Of a DNA stretch of 22,097 nt, positions 1 through 8,922 are shown piece by piece. Origin of the DNA: Nitrospinae bacterium RIFCSPLOWO2_12_FULL_45_22 (GTDB taxonomy: Bacteria > 2-12-FULL-45-22); the NCBI GenBank assembly GCA_001803565.1, contig MHDQ01000287.1, positions 7,005 through 29,101 on the forward strand. Reading direction: 5' to 3'. A program made the position numbers and the translations under genes. Each line of letters starts with the position of its first letter. Position 1 is the first letter of the stretch. The notes below the pieces were generated by a model, which searched no databases, was not told the origin of the DNA, and saw nothing but the letters and a program-made list of their open reading frames with translations.

Positions 1-35
1 GCAATAAAAGTATTTGTGTCAGCAATAACTTTCAT
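1..35 (-). CDS. PIN-domain protein, N-terminus only (cut by window edge)
   Basis: Reading the minus strand from an ATG at 35-33 gives MKVIADTNTFI before the sequence ends. The hydrophobic strand followed by D-T-N is the usual start of PIN-domain ribonucleases such as VapC toxins, where this Asp is the first metal ligand. The gene lies immediately beyond the attC hairpin, so it would be the first gene of the next cassette. No antitoxin gene is visible between the attC and this start; one could follow it outside the window. Only 11 codons are visible, so the family call rests on one motif. Confidence 0.5.
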   Translation of the reverse strand, partial: MKVIADTNTFI

Positions 36-71
36 ATGTACAATTGTGCTTTAGAATTTAATTTTTGTCAA

Positions 72-130
72 GCCGAACGGCTCGGATGAGGGGCGCGCGC
101 TTTTTGCGCGTCCCTCTCGAGCCGTTAGTT
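72..130 (-). repeat. attC recombination site of an integron cassette
   Basis: A 59-bp near-palindrome with attC architecture. The outer core-like heptamers are GTTAGTT (124-130) and GCCGAAC (72-78). Inside them AACGGCTCG pairs with CGAGCCGTT, then GAGGG with CCCTC and CGCGC with GCGCG, around a T-rich loop. Unpaired bases (GAT on one side, single T residues on the other) give the asymmetry expected of attC hairpins that are recombined as folded single strands. It begins 11 nt after the stop codon of the nuclease gene at 142-912, on the 3' side as in gene cassettes. A Rho-independent terminator is less likely because the core heptamers and asymmetric bulges fit attC and no U-tract follows. Confidence 0.75.
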
Positions 131-141
131 ATGTGTTCTTT

Positions 142-912
142 TCATTCCGTGATCGCCCCTCTCAAAATACTTTTGAATAAATCGCTCCATGTTAACCAGC
201 CCATATTGGCTGCAACGGTCTGAATAGGTGGAATATCTATTCCTTCAAGTGCTTTCCTCAGAGGACTTAAACTGTAGTTTCTTCCAAACTTATAGTAATT
301 GGATAGCCAAGCGCTTTTCCATTTATCATCAAATCCTTTTTGTACTGGTGCAAGCGCTTCAGATTTATTTTTTCTTTTAGTCAGTTTCTCAAGCGGTGCT
401 ATATCAAGAAAGATAAAAAAGAATTCCCTTGTGTCGTTCAAGGGAGAATCAAGACCGATTCGTAGTTTTCTGGCAATTTGATCATGTGGCTTAGTCGGTA
501 GCGACGCCATACTCATTGGGCTGTATAATTTTGCTTCAATGAATATCAATTTTCCCGGTAATTCTATGCTCGCATCTACTTCGGTTGATTCCTTTGTGGA
601 AGAACCGGTATATTGTTTGCCAATATAAATTTGGATTTCATTTTCTTTAAATTTGCCATCCTTGAACAAGAATTTGTTCTGTCCTTGGTACGCGTCCTCA
701 AATATTTCATCCAATACAGATACTTTCTTCTTTATAGGTAAGCTGTATAGCACATCGAAACAGGACCATGTTAATGCATCCTCGCTGTGAGAATTGAACC
801 CATTATTCCACTTGTGCTGCATTCCTTTATAGTCTTGTTTGAGAAAGGCTTCCAAAGCTTTTTCTCTGCCAGGCAAAATTACATGGTTACGTCGATAGTC
901 TTTATAGATCAT
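142..912 (-). CDS. PD-(D/E)XK-fold nuclease-like protein (cassette gene)
   Basis: 256 residues, unrecognised as a named family. Residues 111-128 read as a PD-(D/E)XK core: E111 and D113 in a strand, then the hydrophobic strand ending in E126-A-K128 (IFIEAK), followed by Q145 in the helix HDQIARKL. This arrangement is typical of restriction-enzyme-like nucleases. An N-terminal SEDALTW segment (43-49) could supply another acidic helix residue. No membrane segment or signal peptide is visible. The ATG at 912 has only a weak GGA upstream. The gene is divergent from the methyltransferase gene, and its stop lies 11 nt from an attC site. It could be a restriction enzyme, a nuclease of another defence system, or an extra component of the neighbouring restriction-modification pair. 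The fold is moderately sure; the target is unknown. Confidence 0.6.
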   Translation of the reverse strand: MIYKDYRRNHVILPGREKALEAFLKQDYKGMQHKWNNGFNSHSEDALTWSCFDVLYSLPIKKKVSVLDEIFEDAYQGQNKFLFKDGKFKENEIQIYIGKQYTGSSTKESTEVDASIELPGKLIFIEAKLYSPMSMASLPTKPHDQIARKLRIGLDSPLNDTREFFFIFLDIAPLEKLTKRKNKSEALAPVQKGFDDKWKSAWLSNYYKFGRNYSLSPLRKALEGIDIPPIQTVAANMGWLTWSDLFKSILRGAITE

Positions 913-979
913 TGGCTATTCCGCTTTTGCCGATAGCTTTGACGTAACCATCTTTCCCTAAAAAAGAGCAAGAAAAGGG

Positions 980-1008
980 TTGACTCATTTGGTAAACCCC
1001 AGTATATT
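980..1008 (+). promoter_or_regulatory. Promoter of the methyltransferase gene, leaderless arrangement
   Basis: TTGACT (980-985), a 17-bp spacer and TATATT (1003-1008) match the sigma-70 consensus well. The gene's best ATG is at 1016, seven bases after the -10 box, where transcription would be expected to begin. There is no Shine-Dalgarno sequence before that ATG, so the mRNA is probably leaderless. Confidence 0.65.
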
Positions 1009-1015
1009 ACCCATC

Positions 1016-2344
1016 ATGAAACGAACAAAGCATCCCATCATCGTCAACGAGGACCTGGACATGCACCAGTTTGGACAACACCTGAGGGCTATCCGTATTG
1101 GGTGCGGCTTGACCCAAGCCGCAGTCTCGAAACAACTGAATGTCTCTAAGGGATATATTTCCCGCCTTGAGGGAGGCAAGGCTCGCCCGTCGGAATCGGC
1201 GGTTCGGCGACTTGCCGAGGCATGTGGGACTGATCCTGGTTCTCTCCTGATCCTGGCAGGTTACTTGCCTGGAGACATCCGAGATATTTTCAGGCAATAC
1301 CCCACGAAAGCGCCAGCGGTCTTGCGAGAAACATTCCGGGACAATGGTTATGAGACGGAAGAAAGAACCGGAATTGCAGCGGCTGTCGCCGAACCACATG
1401 CGGTCTTTCAAGCAAATGAAGCAACCTACGATCTTGTCCAGGGAGATTGCTTCGAGTGGATGGAGCGCCATCAAGCCGATAGTATTCATGCCATTGTCAC
1501 GGATCCGCCCTACGGCTTAAAGGAATACACGGACATTGAGAAATCCAAACTCAGGCGCGGCCGTGGGGGCGTTTGGCGAATCCCTCCTGCTATTGGTGGA
1601 TGCGTCCGTCGTCCGCTGCCGAGGTTCACAGTTCTCAACAACGATGACAAACAAGAACTCGCAGAGTTTTTTCGGAAGTGGGGCGAGCGTGCATTTGCGG
1701 TTCTCGTTCCGGGGGGGCACGTGTTCATAGCCACCAACCCGCTTCTCTCTCAGTTGATTTACACAGCCCTCCTTGAAAGCGGATTCGAAAAGCGTGGCGA
1801 GATCATCCGCTTGGTTCAGACTCTTCGCGGCGGAGACCGTCCCAAGAATGCGCACGATGAGTTCAAAGACGTCACTGTCATGCCTCGATCCTGTTGGGAA
1901 CCATGGGGTCTCTTCAGAAAACCTTGCGAGGGTCGAGTCCAGGACAACCTCCGTAAGTGGAAGACGGGGGGGCTTCGTAGGGTTGGCTTGGATCAACCGT
2001 TCTGCGATGTTATTAGAAGCTCTCCGACGCGCTCCATTGAGCGCGAGATTGCTCCACATCCGTCCCTCAAACCACAGGGGTTTATGCGCGAGATAGTGCG
2101 TGCGGCATTGCCCCTTGGGGAAGGTATCGTCCTTGACCCATTCATGGGCGGAGGTTCGACCGTTGCTGCCGCATTGGCAGTCGGCTACACAAGCATTGGA
2201 ATCGAAAACGATCCACAGTTCTTCGCGATGGCAAAAGAGGCAATCCCGAGGCTGGCAGCTCTGGTGCCTAATGGGCAGCCCAAGGAGCGATCTTCCCGTA
2301 TTTCGAGGGGCACCGCAAGCACCCAGCCGACCCTGTTTGATTGA
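1016..2344 (+). CDS. XRE-type HTH / beta-class DNA methyltransferase fusion
   Basis: 442 residues from the ATG at 1016. The N-terminus (about 18-75) is an XRE/HTH_3 DNA-binding domain, with the core LTQAAVSKQLNVSKGYISRLEGG. The catalytic domain follows: DPPYG (163-167, motif IV) comes first and LDPFMGGGST (373-382, AdoMet-binding motif I) comes near the end. This IV-before-I order marks a beta-class amino-methyltransferase. DPPY favours N6-adenine, though N4-cytosine is not excluded. The region between, about 170-350, would hold target recognition. The partner nuclease lies tail-to-tail 23 bp downstream. The HTH domain could repress the gene's own promoter, as C proteins and some methyltransferases do; this is inference. 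A TTG at 980 would extend the protein by 12 residues but coincides with the -35 box, so I reject it. Base composition is visibly richer in G+C than the flanking cassettes. Confidence 0.88.
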   Translation: MKRTKHPIIVNEDLDMHQFGQHLRAIRIGCGLTQAAVSKQLNVSKGYISRLEGGKARPSESAVRRLAEACGTDPGSLLILAGYLPGDIRDIFRQYPTKAPAVLRETFRDNGYETEERTGIAAAVAEPHAVFQANEATYDLVQGDCFEWMERHQADSIHAIVTDPPYGLKEYTDIEKSKLRRGRGGVWRIPPAIGGCVRRPLPRFTVLNNDDKQELAEFFRKWGERAFAVLVPGGHVFIATNPLLSQLIYTALLESGFEKRGEIIRLVQTLRGGDRPKNAHDEFKDVTVMPRSCWEPWGLFRKPCEGRVQDNLRKWKTGGLRRVGLDQPFCDVIRSSPTRSIEREIAPHPSLKPQGFMREIVRAALPLGEGIVLDPFMGGGSTVAAALAVGYTSIGIENDPQFFAMAKEAIPRLAALVPNGQPKERSSRISRGTASTQPTLFD

Positions 2345-2367
2345 AGTCAGTATCATGATCTAGCGCT

Positions 2368-3015
2368 TCATGCTCTCGGGTTTGCTAGGATGTCTCGGTG
2401 CCGCCCTATCCCGACACCGGGAAGGCGGTAGAGAAAGTTGCTCCGAAGCTTCTCAACTCCTGTCGCCGTTATAGATGCAGTGGGCGTCCTTCGAGATGCA
2501 CCCTTCCGTCCTGAAAACGACCAATCCGTGCGCACGAGCTTGGCACACAGAATCTCAAGAAACGTCAGGGGAACAGTTTCACCATTATCCTGCTCCCCTA
2601 TCCCGTAGCGAAACACCATCAGCCAGCAGTCCTCTGGATTATGGCCCTGCCAACCTCCACGTTGAATGGACGATTTGACTTCTATTCCCTCGTCACCTTT
2701 CAAGACAAGATTCGAAGAGTAATGGCCTTTGGGGAGAAGGTCGGGATGGCCCCCGACCTTCATGTTGGCCTCCAGCGTTTGTGACGCGCGAGCAATATTC
2801 TTCACCAGGAACTCCGAGATTATACCTGAGAGTGAGTTCCCGAGCAGGAGTTCTTCGAGAGGTCGAAACCCACCCTGAATAAGGAAGTCGTTGAGACCGT
2901 GGAATAGCCTATATGTCTCTGCGACACCCTTCTCAACCTCGATAACCTGCAAACCATATGGTAACTGAACGCGACGATTGACGTATGTAATATCAAGCTG
3001 AGTAGGTCGTGTCAT
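2368..3015 (-). CDS. Type II-like restriction endonuclease, PD-(D/E)XK fold
   Basis: 215 residues. P91-D92 (GHPDLLP) and E112-V-K114 (GIEVKSS) form a PD-(D/E)XK catalytic core, which would cut DNA with Mg2+ as cofactor. The ATG at 3015 has an AAGGGAG Shine-Dalgarno about five bases upstream. The gene faces the HTH-methyltransferase tail-to-tail with 23 bp between the stops, as in many type II restriction-modification pairs. I therefore infer that it cuts the sequence protected by that enzyme. Similar G+C content in the two genes suggests they moved together. The recognition sequence cannot be read from the protein. I do not recognise the exact restriction-enzyme family. Confidence 0.7.
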   Translation of the reverse strand: MTRPTQLDITYVNRRVQLPYGLQVIEVEKGVAETYRLFHGLNDFLIQGGFRPLEELLLGNSLSGIISEFLVKNIARASQTLEANMKVGGHPDLLPKGHYSSNLVLKGDEGIEVKSSIQRGGWQGHNPEDCWLMVFRYGIGEQDNGETVPLTFLEILCAKLVRTDWSFSGRKGASRRTPTASITATGVEKLRSNFLYRLPGVGIGRHRDILANPRA

Positions 3016-3050
3016 GTCTGCTCCCTTATTCTGTCGCCGCGTTTTGGTCG

Positions 3051-3122
3051 GCTAAAGGTACGGCTAAGCGGTTGCAATGGAGCGTAGCGGAATTGCAATC
3101 CGACTTGATCCGATTGTTAGAA
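3051..3122 (-). repeat. attC-like site, partly degenerate
   Basis: Starts 5 nt after the stop of the HEAT-repeat fragment. Reading the minus strand, TTCTAAC (3122-3116) is the first core, then an arm with AATCGGATCAAG and TTGCAAT/ATTGCAA arms around a short loop, then CTTAGCC and CTTTAGC as degenerate second-core candidates. Arms pair through TTGCAAT, AAG/CTT, CGG/CCG and CTAA/TTAG with unpaired bases between, as attC sites do. The second core lacks the expected leading G, so this may be a decayed site. The 3' position after a minus-strand gene matches the attC at 72-130. Confidence 0.55.
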
Positions 3123-3127
3123 ACAAA

Positions 3128-4189
3128 TCATATATCAATTGGTTGCCAAATGAATTTATTCTTAAATTTTCCGGGTGCATATAAAAAACCGTCCAAAAAG
3201 CTTGTTACGTTATAATAGTACGTCTGGCTTTCAATATAAGAGTTCAAAATAGTCTCAAGTTGATTCCTGCCGAGGTCCCTCGAAAGTATTTGGGCTACTA
3301 ACAGACGAATCTTGTCATGTTCAGAATGTAATAATTTGGTTGCGAGAGGAATTCTATCCTCCCGCGACAGTAAATGAATCTGTTCAGCAGCTATTTCGGA
3401 AATATTTTTGTCTTTTCCGTAAACCAAATCTTGAATCACTTTCAACTGATTGCCACTAAGTTTAATGGCTACAATTACGGCCTTTCTCTGGGTGTAACCA
3501 TAAGTATCTTTAGCTAGATTGATGAGGCGTTCGATGTCTGTATGATCACCGTGTCTTTCAATTATTGAAATACAATCATCATTACCCCTCCCGTGCTTGA
3601 GATTCCCCATATACTGTCTTGCAAATTGAATATCAGCTTTATCATTTAACATTGACAGTCCTTTCAATGCCGCTTCTGTAAAAGAATCCTTAAGGAATTG
3701 TTCTATGCCTGGCTTATATTGCGCTAAAAGCAATGAAGCATTATCACCATATTCTGCCTTTAACTTGTCAATAGAATTCCTTTTGATATCTTCGAAGTTA
3801 TTATTCAAATCTGATCTAATTTTTTCTGCCATAGTTGAAAAGTGCAAGATTAACAAAGCTTCATAAGCCTCTTTGCCGTACCCAGAATAAAAATCAACCA
3901 TGTTTTCAAGTTCTTCTTGTGTCCGTCTCGAAAGAACCAACGGAATGATATCATCCTCTGTAACGTGAGGACTTGATAGACCTAGTAATGTCGGTCGCCC
4001 TTCTTTTGGCGTAGGAAATAGTTTAGAAATTTCACTGAGACTAAATTTTCTGCCGTTGTTAATTAACCAAATGAAGCCGATTTTTCTAACAAATGAATCA
4101 GTATCAGCGAGGATTTTTTCTGAAATATCAGCCGTCAATGCGCTTATTCTATCCGTAAAATAGCGATTGATTTTTGAGCAAGGATATTT
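3128..4189 (-). pseudogene. HEAT-repeat C-terminal fragment, probably of the DUF4062 gene split by an IS
   Basis: The frame is open from 4189 to the TGA at 3128; the first usable start is a TTG at 4138 without a convincing Shine-Dalgarno. Residues after 4138 contain helical repeats with HEAT character, such as the segments around DTDSFVRKIGFIWLINNG and HDKIRLLVAQILSRDL. No catalytic motif is seen. The upstream DUF4062 protein ends in the same kind of repeat. Removing the IS at its 9-bp flanking repeat joins the two in the same frame, making about 808 codons, with one TAA lying within the 9-bp repeat. I infer one former gene, encoding a sensor-like repeat protein with a DUF4062 effector head. 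An independent second gene remains possible. Its end abuts an attC-like site. Confidence 0.6.
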
Positions 4190-4193
4190 TTAG
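4185..4193 (+). repeat. 9-bp direct repeat flanking the IS, left copy
   Basis: TATTTTTAG here is repeated exactly at 5816-5824. The pair flanks a transposase-bearing segment of 1622 bp and may be the target-site duplication. IS1380-family duplications are usually shorter, so part of the match may be chance in AT-rich sequence. Confidence 0.5.
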
Positions 4194-4383
4194 TCCTGCT
4201 CTGAGCTTTTCTCTTACTCAGGTATTATTTTTATGTTAATTAACATTAATTACTGATTTGAAAGCCTCAATTATTATTAACCAGGCCAAATAGAGGCTAT
4301 TTCTAGGCGGACTTCCCCTCTGCCTTCTCGAAGAAGGCCAATGATTATGAGATAGCTCCCTTAGACTAGGTAAATATCCTGGG

Positions 4384-5694
4384 CTATCCAGGTCGACATA
4401 GGGCAGAGATGTTCTCACGAATCTCTCTAAAGAGGTTATATTTCTCTAGGCCTGCAGCAATCTTAAGGATAATACTTCTGCCATGCTTAACCACCCGGGC
4501 GGCGGTTTCAAACAGCCTCCAGCGAAGGGTGGCTACGGTATGATACATCCACTCTGGGGGACAGCACAGGCGTTTAAAACCAATCAACACATTGTAAGCA
4601 ATGCTGCCCAAGCGATACCATACCGCATTGGCATAGCTTTCCCCACAGGGCAGGGTCTCTAAGCCAAATCCGATCTTGGATTCTTTGATATAATTCTCTG
4701 CATTCCCCCGGCCATTATGCCACTCTAATACCTTCTCTGCATCCCATTTCTCGGGGAAGTTGCTAGCAACGGCATGATAACGCTCTTTGGGACCCTCTCC
4801 CCATAAACTTAACTGGAGTTCTCTCTCCTTTAGCACAATCAGGCGGAAGGCCTTCTTGGTATGCTCCATGCTGTGCACCGTCTCTGCTATCCAGGCGCCA
4901 TCCCTATCCTTCATGGGTTTCCAATCCTCAGCCGTGATAGCCTCTATGGCTTTTTTAACCGCACTATCCTGATCTGCCGTAATGGTATATTCTATCTGAT
5001 CCTCCTCGCAGTGATTTATAATCCCTGCCTGATAAGCAGCGCTGTCACTGCGGAATCTCTTAATCTTCTTGCCCTGAGGCATCCGCCTCTGGCATTCCTT
5101 CAGGGCCTCCAACAACCCCTTGGAAGGACTCTCATTGCCCTCCCGAAATTCCTCATAGATCTTTAGCCCGTTCTCTGCTAGATACCCCTCCAAAGGCATA
5201 TAGCCCTTAAAGCCCTTATAGGTCATCTGGGCCTCTCTCTTGTTGGCCTCAATAGCCGTGGCATCTAAGTCCAAAGTGTATTCACTAAAAGGCTCCCGCC
5301 TCATCACTTGATGACAGTGGGCTATCTGAACCCTCTCCAATCCCTTAAGCCCTTTTGCTCTCTTAGCAGGATTCCCCATCCGGCGCAACCAGTCCCCCGT
5401 AGCCGATACCGAAGGAATTTCATACTTCAAGACCTTCTTCAATCCCTTATCCCCCTCCAATATCCGCAAATCCTCTATACACCTACCCCCTCCTAGCTGC
5501 ATCAGGATTATGGGTTCGGCATAGACTACTGCCTTCCTGCCTCGCCCACTCCCAGGCTCGGGAAGCTCCCGCGCTAAAGCCCGGTGCAATCCAAGCCCAT
5601 GCAGGTATTCTCCTACCAGGGCTAATCCCGCCCTGGGAGTTAATACCTCATCTGTCATCTCTAGCTTGAATGGCAAAACGGTTTGTTGTGTCAT
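4384..5694 (-). CDS. IS1380-family DDE transposase
   Basis: 436 residues, apparently intact. The DDE triad can be placed at D144 (LDLDAT), D217 (RSDSAAYQAG) and E333 (in GNAENYIKESK); the last motif is characteristic of IS1380-type transposases. It catalyses cut-and-paste movement of the element. The ATG at 5694 follows an AAGGAGGG Shine-Dalgarno about 12 bases upstream. A strong promoter lies within the element at 5753-5781. The full length and intact motifs suggest recent insertion compared with the degraded integrase tail nearby. Confidence 0.9.
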   Translation of the reverse strand: MTQQTVLPFKLEMTDEVLTPRAGLALVGEYLHGLGLHRALARELPEPGSGRGRKAVVYAEPIILMQLGGGRCIEDLRILEGDKGLKKVLKYEIPSVSATGDWLRRMGNPAKRAKGLKGLERVQIAHCHQVMRREPFSEYTLDLDATAIEANKREAQMTYKGFKGYMPLEGYLAENGLKIYEEFREGNESPSKGLLEALKECQRRMPQGKKIKRFRSDSAAYQAGIINHCEEDQIEYTITADQDSAVKKAIEAITAEDWKPMKDRDGAWIAETVHSMEHTKKAFRLIVLKERELQLSLWGEGPKERYHAVASNFPEKWDAEKVLEWHNGRGNAENYIKESKIGFGLETLPCGESYANAVWYRLGSIAYNVLIGFKRLCCPPEWMYHTVATLRWRLFETAARVVKHGRSIILKIAAGLEKYNLFREIRENISALCRPG

Positions 5695-5752
5695 TTTCTT
5701 CTGAGCCCTCCTTGGTTTAGGGTTTCACCCGCATGGTGATGGTTTTTTAACC

Positions 5753-5781
5753 ATTATACCTGGCTGAAACCCTTATTCCAA
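5753..5781 (-). promoter_or_regulatory. Transposase promoter inside the IS
   Basis: On the minus strand TTGGAA (5781-5776), a 17-bp spacer and a perfect TATAAT (5758-5753) precede the transposase. A palindrome ATGGTT-TTTT-AACCAT just downstream, and inverted GGGTTTCA/TGAAACCC arms around it, could fold in the leader and limit transposase expression. Confidence 0.65.
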
Positions 5782-5815
5782 GGAGATTTTTCCATTTGAG
5801 GCTATTTTTAATCAC

Positions 5816-5824
5816 TATTTTTAG
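5816..5824 (+). repeat. 9-bp direct repeat flanking the IS, right copy
   Basis: Exact copy of 4185-4193. On the minus strand it contains the TAA stop (5823-5821) that ends the DUF4062 reading frame. The identical TAA also precedes the downstream fragment, so clean excision would leave one in-frame stop. Confidence 0.5.
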
Positions 5825-7188
5825 GTTCTATTAAGGTAATCTGCTGCATATTCCCTGACACGGGGCGCTGCCTCAAATATTGCTGAAACAATCAAATCAA
5901 CACTCACTTTGATGTCAAGGCTCTCCAGTGAGGCTTTATACACATTTGTTACTTCAGTTGACTTTTCTTTGAGAAGAATAAATGACTGTTCCGGTTCAAA
6001 TAAATATAACAAGTCTATGTAAGTAGCCATAGCAACATTTCTTATATTTTCATTTTCATGAGTAAGTAGTGGTTCTAAAAGGGCTAGAAATGTTTTTTCT
6101 TGACAGTATTTTATTAGACTAATTGCCGCGATAATGATGTCATCGTCATCGTCCTCCAGTAGATCACTCATTATTTCTAGTGGAGGAGTAGTATTGGAAT
6201 AATTCAAAGCCGCCAATGCACCTTTTCTGACTGCACCATTGCGATCATTTCGCGACAAGTAAAAAAGTATGTCTTCTATGTCGTTAACATCTTTACCAGA
6301 AAGCCAATACCATCCCGGTATAACACCAGAAAAATCACCAAAGTAGGTTCTCATTAGGAACGATTTTTCATTAAAGGATAAATTCCACTCATTTCTTTTT
6401 CGATATACTAAGTTAGTCTCATGTGTTCCGAAAAGTTCTCCTATATGTGATGAGGAAAAAAGGGCGCTGGCAGAAAGATAGGCACGAATACGTTCCCAGT
6501 AATCTATCTCTTCCTCATTACCATCTCCTAAACATTTTCCAATCTTAGTGAAAACGTCAATGAGTTCATCGTTCTTATTATCTCGATAATTCGCTTGTTC
6601 TAGTTTTGCATATGGAACAGCGTTGGAGGTAGGCGGCTCGGTTTCTAAATCGGAAGACGTTTTCTGGGAGCTATTATTAATATCTAACAAGTATGCACTT
6701 AGATCTTCAAAAGCTATATCCCTAAATGCACTTATGTCTTCAAATTCCTTAAATAAAAGCTCCTTGCCTTCTATAAGTTGCTTCTTGAAATGAATACATT
6801 TTTTTAGCTGTTCTCCTGGATCTTTGAATAGCTCTTCTTCAATTCGCTTGAAAAACATCCATATTTCTGGCTTGTCACCATTGATCCTCCTGCTACGAGC
6901 AATAGAAAATTCTTCTTCGAAGCCAGAACTATACTCACCGCTTTCCGTACCCCAGCGCTTCCATAGCATGCCAATAAATAAATCGCAATTTTCAACATCC
7001 TTGTTTATTAAGGTTTGCGGCCTAGAAAAGCCAGCTAGGGTATCTTCCCATCCCAATAGCTCTATTTGCCATCCAATGCGCTTTCCATATATTTTATTTA
7101 ATCTTTCAACTACATCTCTTAGAGTTTTTCTCTCGTCACTCAAATCACTGGGAGATGCGACAAAAACTGATAAAATCTTCCGTTCCAA
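5821..7188 (-). CDS. DUF4062-domain protein with HEAT-like repeats, 5' part of IS-split gene
   Basis: 455 residues. The first ~100 residues match DUF4062: VFVASPSDLSDER near the start and, around 68-95, CDLFIGMLWKRWGTESGE followed by an acidic helix. This domain occurs at the N-terminus of multidomain proteins with NACHT, TPR or HEAT regions and is suspected of defence or signalling roles; no reaction is established that I can cite. Residues about 300-455 are alpha-helical HEAT-like repeats with a DDDDD acidic stretch. The start is a TTG at 7188 preceded by AAGGA at eight bases. It is first after the integrase remnant and its promoter, and G+C is low. The stop falls exactly in the IS flanking repeat, so the protein is probably truncated from about 800 residues. 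Confidence 0.75.
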   Translation of the reverse strand: MERKILSVFVASPSDLSDERKTLRDVVERLNKIYGKRIGWQIELLGWEDTLAGFSRPQTLINKDVENCDLFIGMLWKRWGTESGEYSSGFEEEFSIARSRRINGDKPEIWMFFKRIEEELFKDPGEQLKKCIHFKKQLIEGKELLFKEFEDISAFRDIAFEDLSAYLLDINNSSQKTSSDLETEPPTSNAVPYAKLEQANYRDNKNDELIDVFTKIGKCLGDGNEEEIDYWERIRAYLSASALFSSSHIGELFGTHETNLVYRKRNEWNLSFNEKSFLMRTYFGDFSGVIPGWYWLSGKDVNDIEDILFYLSRNDRNGAVRKGALAALNYSNTTPPLEIMSDLLEDDDDDIIIAAISLIKYCQEKTFLALLEPLLTHENENIRNVAMATYIDLLYLFEPEQSFILLKEKSTEVTNVYKASLESLDIKVSVDLIVSAIFEAAPRVREYAADYLNRT

Positions 7189-7224
7189 GCTATTGGTCCT
7201 TTCTTTCTATTGAGCAATTCTATT

Positions 7225-7231
7225 TTCTAAC
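7225..7231 (-). other. Putative cassette boundary core (G^TTRRRY-like)
   Basis: The minus strand reads GTTAGAA here, about 40 nt before the DUF4062 start. This is the exact complement of the first core TTCTAAC of the attC-like site after the HEAT fragment. In integron cassettes the two ends of one cassette show just this complementarity. The motif is short and the region AT-rich, so chance is possible. Confidence 0.4.
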
Positions 7232-7245
7232 TACTAATTATATAG

Positions 7246-7279
7246 AAAAAAATTCTGCATTTTCCGGTAAAATGCAGAA
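7246..7279 (-). terminator. Hairpin plus U-tract in the leader of the DUF4062 gene
   Basis: An 11-bp perfect inverted repeat (7253-7263 with 7269-7279, TTCTGCATTTT and its complement) closes a five-base CCGGT loop. On the minus strand it is followed by seven T residues. It may terminate transcription from the integrase remnant, act as an attenuator between the promoter at 7331-7359 and the DUF4062 start, or belong to an attI-like region. Confidence 0.55.
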
Positions 7280-7330
7280 AAATTTCTGTTATAATCCAAA
7301 TATTATCGTTTTTTACAGAATTCTACCCTC

Positions 7331-7359
7331 ATTATAAAAACTAAAGAGCTATCTGACAA
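7331..7359 (-). promoter_or_regulatory. Cassette promoter with operator-like palindrome
   Basis: On the minus strand TTGTCA (7359-7354), a 17-bp spacer and a perfect TATAAT (7336-7331) form a strong sigma-70 promoter reading into the DUF4062 gene. A perfect palindrome TGACA-A-TGTCA (7354-7364) covers the -35 box and overlaps the integrase stop codon, so a repressor site is plausible. The predicted leader is about 135 nt. By position this would be the array's cassette promoter. Confidence 0.6.
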
Positions 7360-7361
7360 TG

Positions 7362-7508
7362 TCAATGATCTAATGGGCTTTTTATACTTATCCCGGGCTT
7401 ATTTAACACATGGGTGTAAATCATAGTGGTTGAGACATCGCTATGACCCAGCAACTCTTACACCGTCCTGATGTCGTAGTTTGCCTCCAGTAGATGGGTG
7501 GCATAAAA
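7362..7508 (-). pseudogene. Integron integrase (IntI-type tyrosine recombinase) C-terminal remnant
   Basis: Conceptual translation of the minus strand gives ATHLLEANYDIRTV, a stop, then [16 protein letters not shown] and a tail ending KSPLDH before TGA at 7362. The second catalytic His/Trp-region histidine (LGHSD) and the nucleophilic tyrosine (MIYTHV) are present. The catalytic Arg-His segment expected just upstream is replaced by QGFY. The in-frame TAA replaces the usual Gln of DIRTVQ. The [16 protein letters not shown] and SPLD signature is typical of IntI proteins. Everything 5' of it is missing: the fragment starts eight bases after the waaA stop. It cannot be functional. A related non-integron recombinase is possible, because the IntI-specific insertion lies in the lost part. 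Confidence 0.8.
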
Positions 7509-7515
7509 TCCCTGG

Positions 7516-8841
7516 TTAGGGATTATTTTTATTCAATAATTCTTTTATTAGCTCAAGATAGCGGGAGACGGCCCCCTGGTTAGCAAAGACCACTTGTTGG
7601 GCCTTTTCTCCTAGTTCTTCTATTTTCTGGGGCTGCTGCAACAGCTCCAGCATCTTATTGGCCAGTCCTTGACCATCCTGGATCTGGATACCACCACCGC
7701 TCTCTATCAGTATCCGGCCTATCTCTTCGAAATTAAATACCGAGGGGCCAAAAAAGACCGGCTTTTTGTGCACCGCTGGCTCCAGCAGGTTCTGGCCCCC
7801 GGTCGGGACTAGACTCCCACCTACAAAGACCAGGGTGCCTAAGGCATATAGAGAGGCTAATTCCCCTAAAGTATCCAATATAATGATGGGCTTTTGATCT
7901 TTCTGGGGCGCTGATCCCTCTGCCAAAAGCTTAGTCCGTCTGATGCTGCGCAAGCCCTTTCTTTTTATCAGCTCCTCTATCTCCTCCGCCCGTTCAATAT
8001 GCCTGGGGGCTATTATCAAGACCAGTGATGGGTAGTGGAGCCTCAATTGCCCATACACTTCAACTATTATCTCTTCTTCACCACGATGGGTACTACCAGC
8101 GATAATTACCTGTTCCTGCCCGTTTAAGCTAAGGGATTGGCGCAGAGTATGTAATTCTTCTTTTGAAATGGCCGTTAAAGAAGTAGCCCGGTCAAATTTT
8201 ACATTGCCCAGTACCATTACCCTTTCTGGTGGGGCCCCCAGTTGCTGGATACGGTAAGCATCTGCGTCTGTCTGCATCCCGAAAAGGTCTATCTGACTAA
8301 GGACATGCCGCATAAAAAATCTTACCCGCCGATAGCCTTTATAAGATTTGGGTGAGAGGCGGCCGTTGATAATAGCTGACGGGACACCTTTTTGGGCCAG
8401 GTAATGGAAAAAATTGGGCCAGAGCTCGGTCTCCATAGCCAGGAAGAGCCTGGGCTGGACGAAATCTATCACCCGCTTCACCGACCAGGGATAATCAAAA
8501 GGGAAAAAGATAAACTGATCTGCCCAGGGTATTTTCTCCTGGGCCGTGCGGTATCCGGTTACCGTTACGGTAGAGAGCAGGACTTTCAACTGGGGCCAGG
8601 TCTTCTTCACTTCTCTTACGATAGGCACCGCTGCTATTACTTCACCTACTGAGACGGCATGGAGCCAGACCCAATCTCCTGGTTCCCAATCAGACCGGAT
8701 ATGTTGGGGTAGGAGGCCAAGGCGCTCTTTAAGGCTGATCTGGTATTTAGCAGTAGTGCTTAGTTTATACAGGATAACTGGAAATCCTAAGCCTGTGCCT
8801 ATATGGAGCAATAAATTATAGATGATAAAGCCTGGTTTCAT
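7516..8841 (-). CDS. waaA: 3-deoxy-D-manno-octulosonic acid (Kdo) transferase
   Basis: 441 residues, the normal size for the GT30 family. It transfers Kdo from CMP-Kdo to the lipid A precursor at the inner face of the cytoplasmic membrane. The N-terminal hydrophobic segment (about 5-25) fits membrane association. WLHAVSVGEV (59-68) carries the catalytic Glu67, and METELWPNF is the second family signature in the N-terminal domain. The C-terminal half carries donor-site signatures such as GGSLVPTGGQNLLEPA. The ATG at 8841 lacks a strong Shine-Dalgarno. It lies 87 bp downstream of lpxI on the same strand, with a palindromic repeat between them, so it is probably the last gene of the lipid A operon. 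The number of Kdo residues it adds cannot be told from the sequence. Confidence 0.95.
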   Translation of the reverse strand: MKPGFIIYNLLLHIGTGLGFPVILYKLSTTAKYQISLKERLGLLPQHIRSDWEPGDWVWLHAVSVGEVIAAVPIVREVKKTWPQLKVLLSTVTVTGYRTAQEKIPWADQFIFFPFDYPWSVKRVIDFVQPRLFLAMETELWPNFFHYLAQKGVPSAIINGRLSPKSYKGYRRVRFFMRHVLSQIDLFGMQTDADAYRIQQLGAPPERVMVLGNVKFDRATSLTAISKEELHTLRQSLSLNGQEQVIIAGSTHRGEEEIIVEVYGQLRLHYPSLVLIIAPRHIERAEEIEELIKRKGLRSIRRTKLLAEGSAPQKDQKPIIILDTLGELASLYALGTLVFVGGSLVPTGGQNLLEPAVHKKPVFFGPSVFNFEEIGRILIESGGGIQIQDGQGLANKMLELLQQPQKIEELGEKAQQVVFANQGAVSRYLELIKELLNKNNP

Positions 8842-8852
8842 ATAGGTTCACA

Positions 8853-8922
8853 GCGTAAAGTGCAAGATGTAAAGCTATGGTATTATTACTTAGCTTTGCG
8901 CTTTTAGCTTTAAGTTTTACGC
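8853..8922. repeat. Imperfect palindromic intergenic repeat
   Basis: Left arm 8853-8879 (GCGTAAAGTGCAAGATG...) and right arm 8892-8922 (ending TTTTACGC) are imperfect inverted repeats filling the lpxI-waaA gap. Its transcript would fold into a long hairpin within the operon. It has no good U-tract, so I call it a repeat rather than a terminator. Confidence 0.55.

Follow-up and report, generated by a model that had tools for sequence, protein, structure and literature searches.

Directly behind waaA in the draft genome (3.67 Mb, 321 contigs) of Nitrospinae bacterium RIFCSPLOWO2_12_FULL_45_22 lies a short stretch of DNA that resembles the end of a tyrosine recombinase gene, which raises the question of where this fragment comes from and whether it is an isolated scrap or the edge of a larger element. 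We addressed this question in a stretch of 22,097 bp of contig MHDQ01000287.1 (C287), referred to here as the window. A sequence-only reading had taken the fragment for the remnant of an integron integrase (IntI) in which the catalytic Tyr and the SPLD ending survive and which carries an in-frame stop, and in these respects it was right. Specifically, the reading frame of the tail runs on the minus strand (a point that reading had left unstated) from 7502 down to 7362, retains the catalytic Tyr (YTHV) as well as SPLD, and is interrupted by a TAA at 7458–7460. In searches in which the in-frame stop was entered as Q or X, the tail matched positions 268–314 of the integron-integrase model TIGR02249 (E 1.3e-18) and the Pfam integrase model PF00589 (E 1.2e-8), and it is 72–81% identical to annotated IntI in plasmid records; because of these profile E-values and identities we do not regard the resemblance as chance. 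Although the ATHLL...YTHV core is common to all tyrosine recombinases and would also fit a tail from a XerC/XerD or phage-type enzyme, the translated comparison with tyrosine recombinases favored IntI, the tail being 73–87% identical to the four IntI of a local panel (L129, C304, G001, C243) and 57–62% identical, over a shorter stretch, to Xer-type recombinases. Together with the SPLD ending and the attI and attC context described below, these identities rule out a Xer or phage origin so nearly completely that we give it hardly any weight, and we take the fragment to be the true 3′ end of an integron integrase gene.

The truncation is as sharp as had been claimed: no IntI sequence was found upstream of ATHLL at the waaA locus. 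Absent from the tail are the IntI-specific additional domain and the full catalytic set (R, K, HxxR, Y), of which it holds the late H and Tyr segment only, and that with a stop; judged by these residues the tail is an integrase remnant that would not specify a working enzyme. From the waaA stop codon (7516–7518) it is 13 bp to the tail's GCC (Ala) codon. The tail does abut waaA, but the distance of eight bases given earlier is too short because two further codons (Phe-Tyr), which are not clearly IntI, had been counted in. Likewise, the tail does form one edge of an island of accessory DNA, but it marks this boundary a few bases less exactly than had been claimed, the short ATTTTAT ahead of ATHLL being of uncertain assignment. 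We also considered whether the waaA joint is a dispersed repeat or the end of an IS and rejected this, since the joint pattern CCCTAACCAGGGATTTTAT has no other mismatch-free copy in the genome. The coordinates of this and the other features are collected in Table 1.

Table 1 Features of the island edge at waaA (positions in the window)
Feature	Position	Strand	Basis or remark
intI 3′ end	7362..7502	minus	last 46 codons and stop; TIGR02249 and IntI identity
Putative cassette promoter Pc	7331..7365	minus	TTGACATTGTCA ... TATAAT
attI-like region	7225..7320	minus	TTCTGTAAAAAACG...ACAGAA..TTCTGCAT, partly repeated second half, core GTTAGAA at 7225–7231
11-bp perfect hairpin inside attI-like region	7253..7279	minus	terminator-like on both strands
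Proposed gene cassette 1, attI core to attC, IS-enlarged	3049..7230	minus	R″/cassette-start match
DUF4062/HEAT cassette gene, 5′ part	5821..7188	minus	PF13271 E 1.6e-11; PADLOC PDC-S60 E 3.4e-29
DUF4062/HEAT cassette gene, 3′ part	3128..4138	minus	frame continues across IS flanks; weak HEAT match
Insertion sequence splitting the cassette gene, approximate boundaries	4152..5825	minus	DDE_Tnp_1_4 transposase ORF 4384–5694, PF13701 E 4.7e-43
Candidate attC	3049..3123	minus	R″ TTTCTAAC at 3116–3123, L″-like GGATCAAGTCGGAT, long imperfect stem, degenerate R′ box
waaA (Kdo transferase), chromosomal gene, right edge of island	7516..8841	minus	PF04413 E 1.3e-63
waaA stop/IntI tail joint, 13 bp	7503..7515	minus	one hairpin arm (AATCCCT-AACC-AGGGATT) and ATTTTAT, resembling the C136 junction

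To the right of the tail are waaA, lpxI and a gene for a Gfo/Idh oxidoreductase, and lpxK (PF02606, E 1.9e-95) lies beyond the window on the left, so that the accessory DNA between waaA and lpxK, ~8.8 kb with the IntI tail as its right edge, sits inside the lipid A cluster. Beyond its first part, the island contains a type II methylase gene on the other strand and nuclease-like ORFs, with genes on both strands and no clear attC, so that a cassette-like character can be shown for the first part only. At 980–3015 an HTH-methylase fusion (type II MTase, PADLOC E 6e-113) faces a 215-residue ORF of no known family, and the two are likely a restriction-modification pair. At 72–130, with a nuclease-like ORF on one side and a PIN-domain-like ORF, mostly outside the window, on the other, we note a very stable hairpin (AACGGCTCG...CGAGCCGTT) that is doubtful as an attC, its R and L boxes having no spacer and its form being terminator-like. 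Upstream of waaA, in the intergenic region at ~8848–8900, there is a match of 85% over 53 bp to C213:5821–5873, possibly a small dispersed repeat. An Rfam search of the window returned no match. Our genome collection yielded no relative for the 3′ side of waaA, and waaA was not detected in the sole genome of the same order that we examined (G001), which has its own full-length IntI with the next gene on the same strand.

The treatment of the tail as an isolated scrap does not hold, as a promoter-like sequence, an attI-like module and a cassette follow it on the same strand and it is one of three copies in the genome. Searching the genome at the DNA level, we found two loci related to the window copy, C136 and C317, and the module of promoter and attI is present in exactly three copies, each behind an IntI tail. 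At C136 and C317 the IntI stop is followed by TTGACA/G 17 nt from TATAgT/TATAAT and then by TTCTGTAAAAAnCG. In the window a 6-bp insertion parts TTGACA from TATAAT, and the adjacent TTGTCA-N17-TATAAT matches 11 of 12 consensus bases; this stretch would be the cassette promoter, Pc, with putative promoter activity. The nearest full-length IntI that we found, that of Candidatus Brocadia sp. BIN37 (JAUQXU010000321.1; L129), is 79% identical over the N-terminal part and 87% over the tail, and the intergenic region beside it, read toward the cassettes, holds TTGACT-N17-TAAAAT and a module that aligns with those of C136 and the window. The attI-like region of the window is 74.5% identical to that of C136 over 102 columns and aligns with the attI region of L129 in two overlapping pieces (83.7% over 43 and 70% over 54), and the C136 module is 77% identical to L129 over 48 bp. 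Shuffled sequences aligned with L129 as well as the real module in 9 of 2000 cases for the window, 0 of 2000 for C136 and 90 of 2000 for C317. By itself the window thus matches L129 only modestly, and the C317 module alone falls short of significance, yet it is homologous to that of C136. We read the shared modules as Pc and attI, the latter by homology among C136, C317 and L129, with attI activity presumed.

The proposed cassette begins with GTTAGAAA, the exact reverse complement of R″ TTTCTAAC, and in the following 5 kb TTTCTAAC occurs a single time, just past the DUF4062/HEAT gene. The insertion sequence that splits this gene has inverted ends CCgTAAAATAGcGATT / CCTAAAAATAGtGATT and is flanked by a 6-bp repeat, ATAGAA. 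The candidate attC has a weak predicted fold (z −2.0, with 4 of 200 shuffled sequences folding as well), and from these features together we infer a cassette in the window. The integrase gene and the cassettes lie on the same strand, with the 3′ end of intI toward attI, in the window as well as at C136 and C317. The succession of tail, promoter-like sequence, attI-like module and cassette on one strand points to the platform end of an inverted-integrase integron.

The sister copies bear on how the tail lost the rest of its gene. At both C136 and C317, IntI model positions 3 to 124/125 are joined directly to the tail (269–313), so that residues ~125–268 are deleted at one shared junction; the joint is identical (TTATT joined to CCGCCAC, with the same frame offset) within an element of ~596 bp that is 83% identical between the two. 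C136 carries two well-formed attC on the strand of intI, behind ORFs of 396 and 321 residues, and its first cassette starts with GTTAGAC, complementary to its R″ GTCTAAC. Directly after the platform at C317 comes a PIN-domain gene whose DNA is 65% identical over 565 bp to that of a gene from the L129 array. A search of viral contigs for the core-deleted junction found none. Window and sister tails start at the same codon, to within about 7 bp, with waaA in place of the N-terminal part in the window copy. A deletion or recombination had been proposed to have joined the island to the lipid A genes; the island does abut waaA, but because two sister copies have the same internal deletion the break is not simply a local one.

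We therefore favor the explanation that the window feature is the surviving intI 3′ end of an inverted-integrase chromosomal integron, probably derived from a core-deleted form, and we hold it with good though not full confidence. The platform sits directly behind waaA and before lpxK, with intI read toward Pc-attI and the cassettes. The window copy would descend from a core-deleted form of the C136/C317 type, the most likely ancestry judging from the junction, and would then have lost its N-terminal part; with the integrase gene at waaA gone up to the codon ATHLL, the site could no longer make its own integrase. The remaining promoter and attI would transcribe one fixed cassette, the IS-split DUF4062/HEAT gene.

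Alternatively, an illegitimate deletion with no relation to the one at C136 and C317 may have truncated a full-length intI behind waaA and ended at ATHLL by chance. The window tail is equally distant from C136 and C317, agrees with the shared junction to no better than about 7 bp and has no N-terminal part, which makes an independent break conceivable, and the hairpin at the waaA joint could have favored a deletion. Breaks within ~10 residues of ATHLL are also seen in other recombinase tails, namely in C106 (behind a FabK-like gene), in C95 and in G103 (a gene with an insertion flanked by terminal inverted repeats, TIR). Against this, a break in a gene of ~950 bp would fall by chance no more than ~10 bp from the shared junction in roughly 2% of cases, and most IntI fragments in another phylum break elsewhere, so that a general hot spot is not established. 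On balance we consider an independent truncation possible but doubtful. Deletion at ATHLL as a general hot spot was itself considered; the pattern is suggestive in this genome, but fragments of another phylum break at many places.

The three other broken recombinase genes are as follows. C106 (L061) has at ~4800–4946 a tail from a recombinase of the C55/C202 Xer-like family (LLEGGTDLRYIQELLGH...), which begins immediately at the stop codon of a gene whose C-terminal sequence, judged by eye, resembles a FabK-like enoyl-ACP reductase, an arrangement that parallels the window tail at waaA. On the minus strand of C95 (L060; contig ~6479–6640) an integrase N-terminal extension is joined directly to a GYDIRTV tail, which we read as an independent large internal deletion ending ~7 residues after the window break. 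In another phylum, at ~1130–1600 of G103:C99 (L138), an insertion of ~400 bp, with the ends TATCCCG/CGGGATA and a short repeat, CGGCA, separates HTFRH from SFATHL in an integrase gene, close to the window breakpoint.

As to how C136 and C317 came to share one junction, either the deleted form was duplicated and kept constrained at C136, or the deletion moved between copies. C136 and C317 differ within 10 bp on both sides of the joint, leaving little room for gene conversion. With L129 as outgroup, the N-terminal part shows 13 synonymous and 6 nonsynonymous changes on the C136 branch and 10 and 16 on the C317 branch, and in the tail, set against the window copy, the C136 branch shows 8 synonymous and 0 nonsynonymous changes; these counts come from short sequences and a single distant outgroup, with ambiguous sites omitted. 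The C136 branch thus looks mostly synonymous and the C317 branch neutral. Such a pattern, along with the open frame at C136, would suit a core-deleted IntI (N-terminal extension and core-binding domain, perhaps with the tail added by frameshifting) that selection has maintained, for instance to regulate attI or attC sites by binding DNA, with the other copies decayed from it. However, the C136 tail is out of frame with the N-terminal part, and the same picture could arise if the gene had been constrained until a recent deletion that was then transferred between copies; we regard selection for the deleted form as unlikely. The truncated IntI frame at C136 (L054, 9795–10660) is open for 252 residues. 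Also present at the C136 junction is a canonical heptamer for −1 slippage, A AAT TTT, which would bring the N-terminal part in frame with the tail and may be coincidence; C317 lacks it.

It is similarly improbable, in our view, that the three copies form a dispersed family of platforms that lack the integrase catalytic core but retain their Pc-attI ends, and possibly a truncated IntI protein, as non-autonomous integrons that the intact integrases of C243 or C304 could serve in trans. The same genome contains, at 90–4197 of C304 (L057), a canonical integron with a full-length intI and six well-formed attC.

The layout that we propose resembles that of the chromosomal integrons of Treponema, in which the integrase is transcribed toward attI (PMC3607928). 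Unlike those, the intI here consists of the last 46 codons (window) or is core-deleted (C136, C317), and there are three copies in one genome, with few cassettes. Xanthomonas integrons have a fixed place behind a housekeeping gene; their intI is widely truncated or lost, with deletions shared among strain groups (PMC12444791). There as here a chromosomal integron behind a housekeeping gene (ilvD there, waaA here) has lost intI and retained cassettes, but there one ancestral locus is found per genome, whereas here there are three loci of one family, two of them sharing a deletion junction. The L129 integron shares with the copies described here the attI-like module, a Pc-like sequence (TTGACT-N17-TAAAAT) and a related PIN-domain gene but has a full-length intI and the canonical divergent layout. 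Finally, clusters of attC sites lacking an integrase (CALIN), which have been reviewed together with their proposed origins (PMC8618304), are comparable in that cassettes remain with no working integrase nearby. A CALIN, however, takes at least two attC without intI; positions 1–7300 of the window hold at most one or two candidates, all weak, and Pc-attI and the IntI tail are still recognizable.

Because integrase loss is common in chromosomal integrons, the window feature is largely ordinary decay; what is unusual is that one genome holds the same platform in three copies, of which two have a core deletion in common. Our findings indicate that a chromosomal integron can decay to a nearly unrecognizable 140-bp tail with a promoter and attI, a platform that would escape the usual searches for intI or attC clusters. 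They also record a known but uncommon layout, with the integrase directed toward attI, in a poorly sampled lineage. If core-deleted copies were indeed selected, or served in trans, they would represent a new route by which integrons persist without an integrase of their own.
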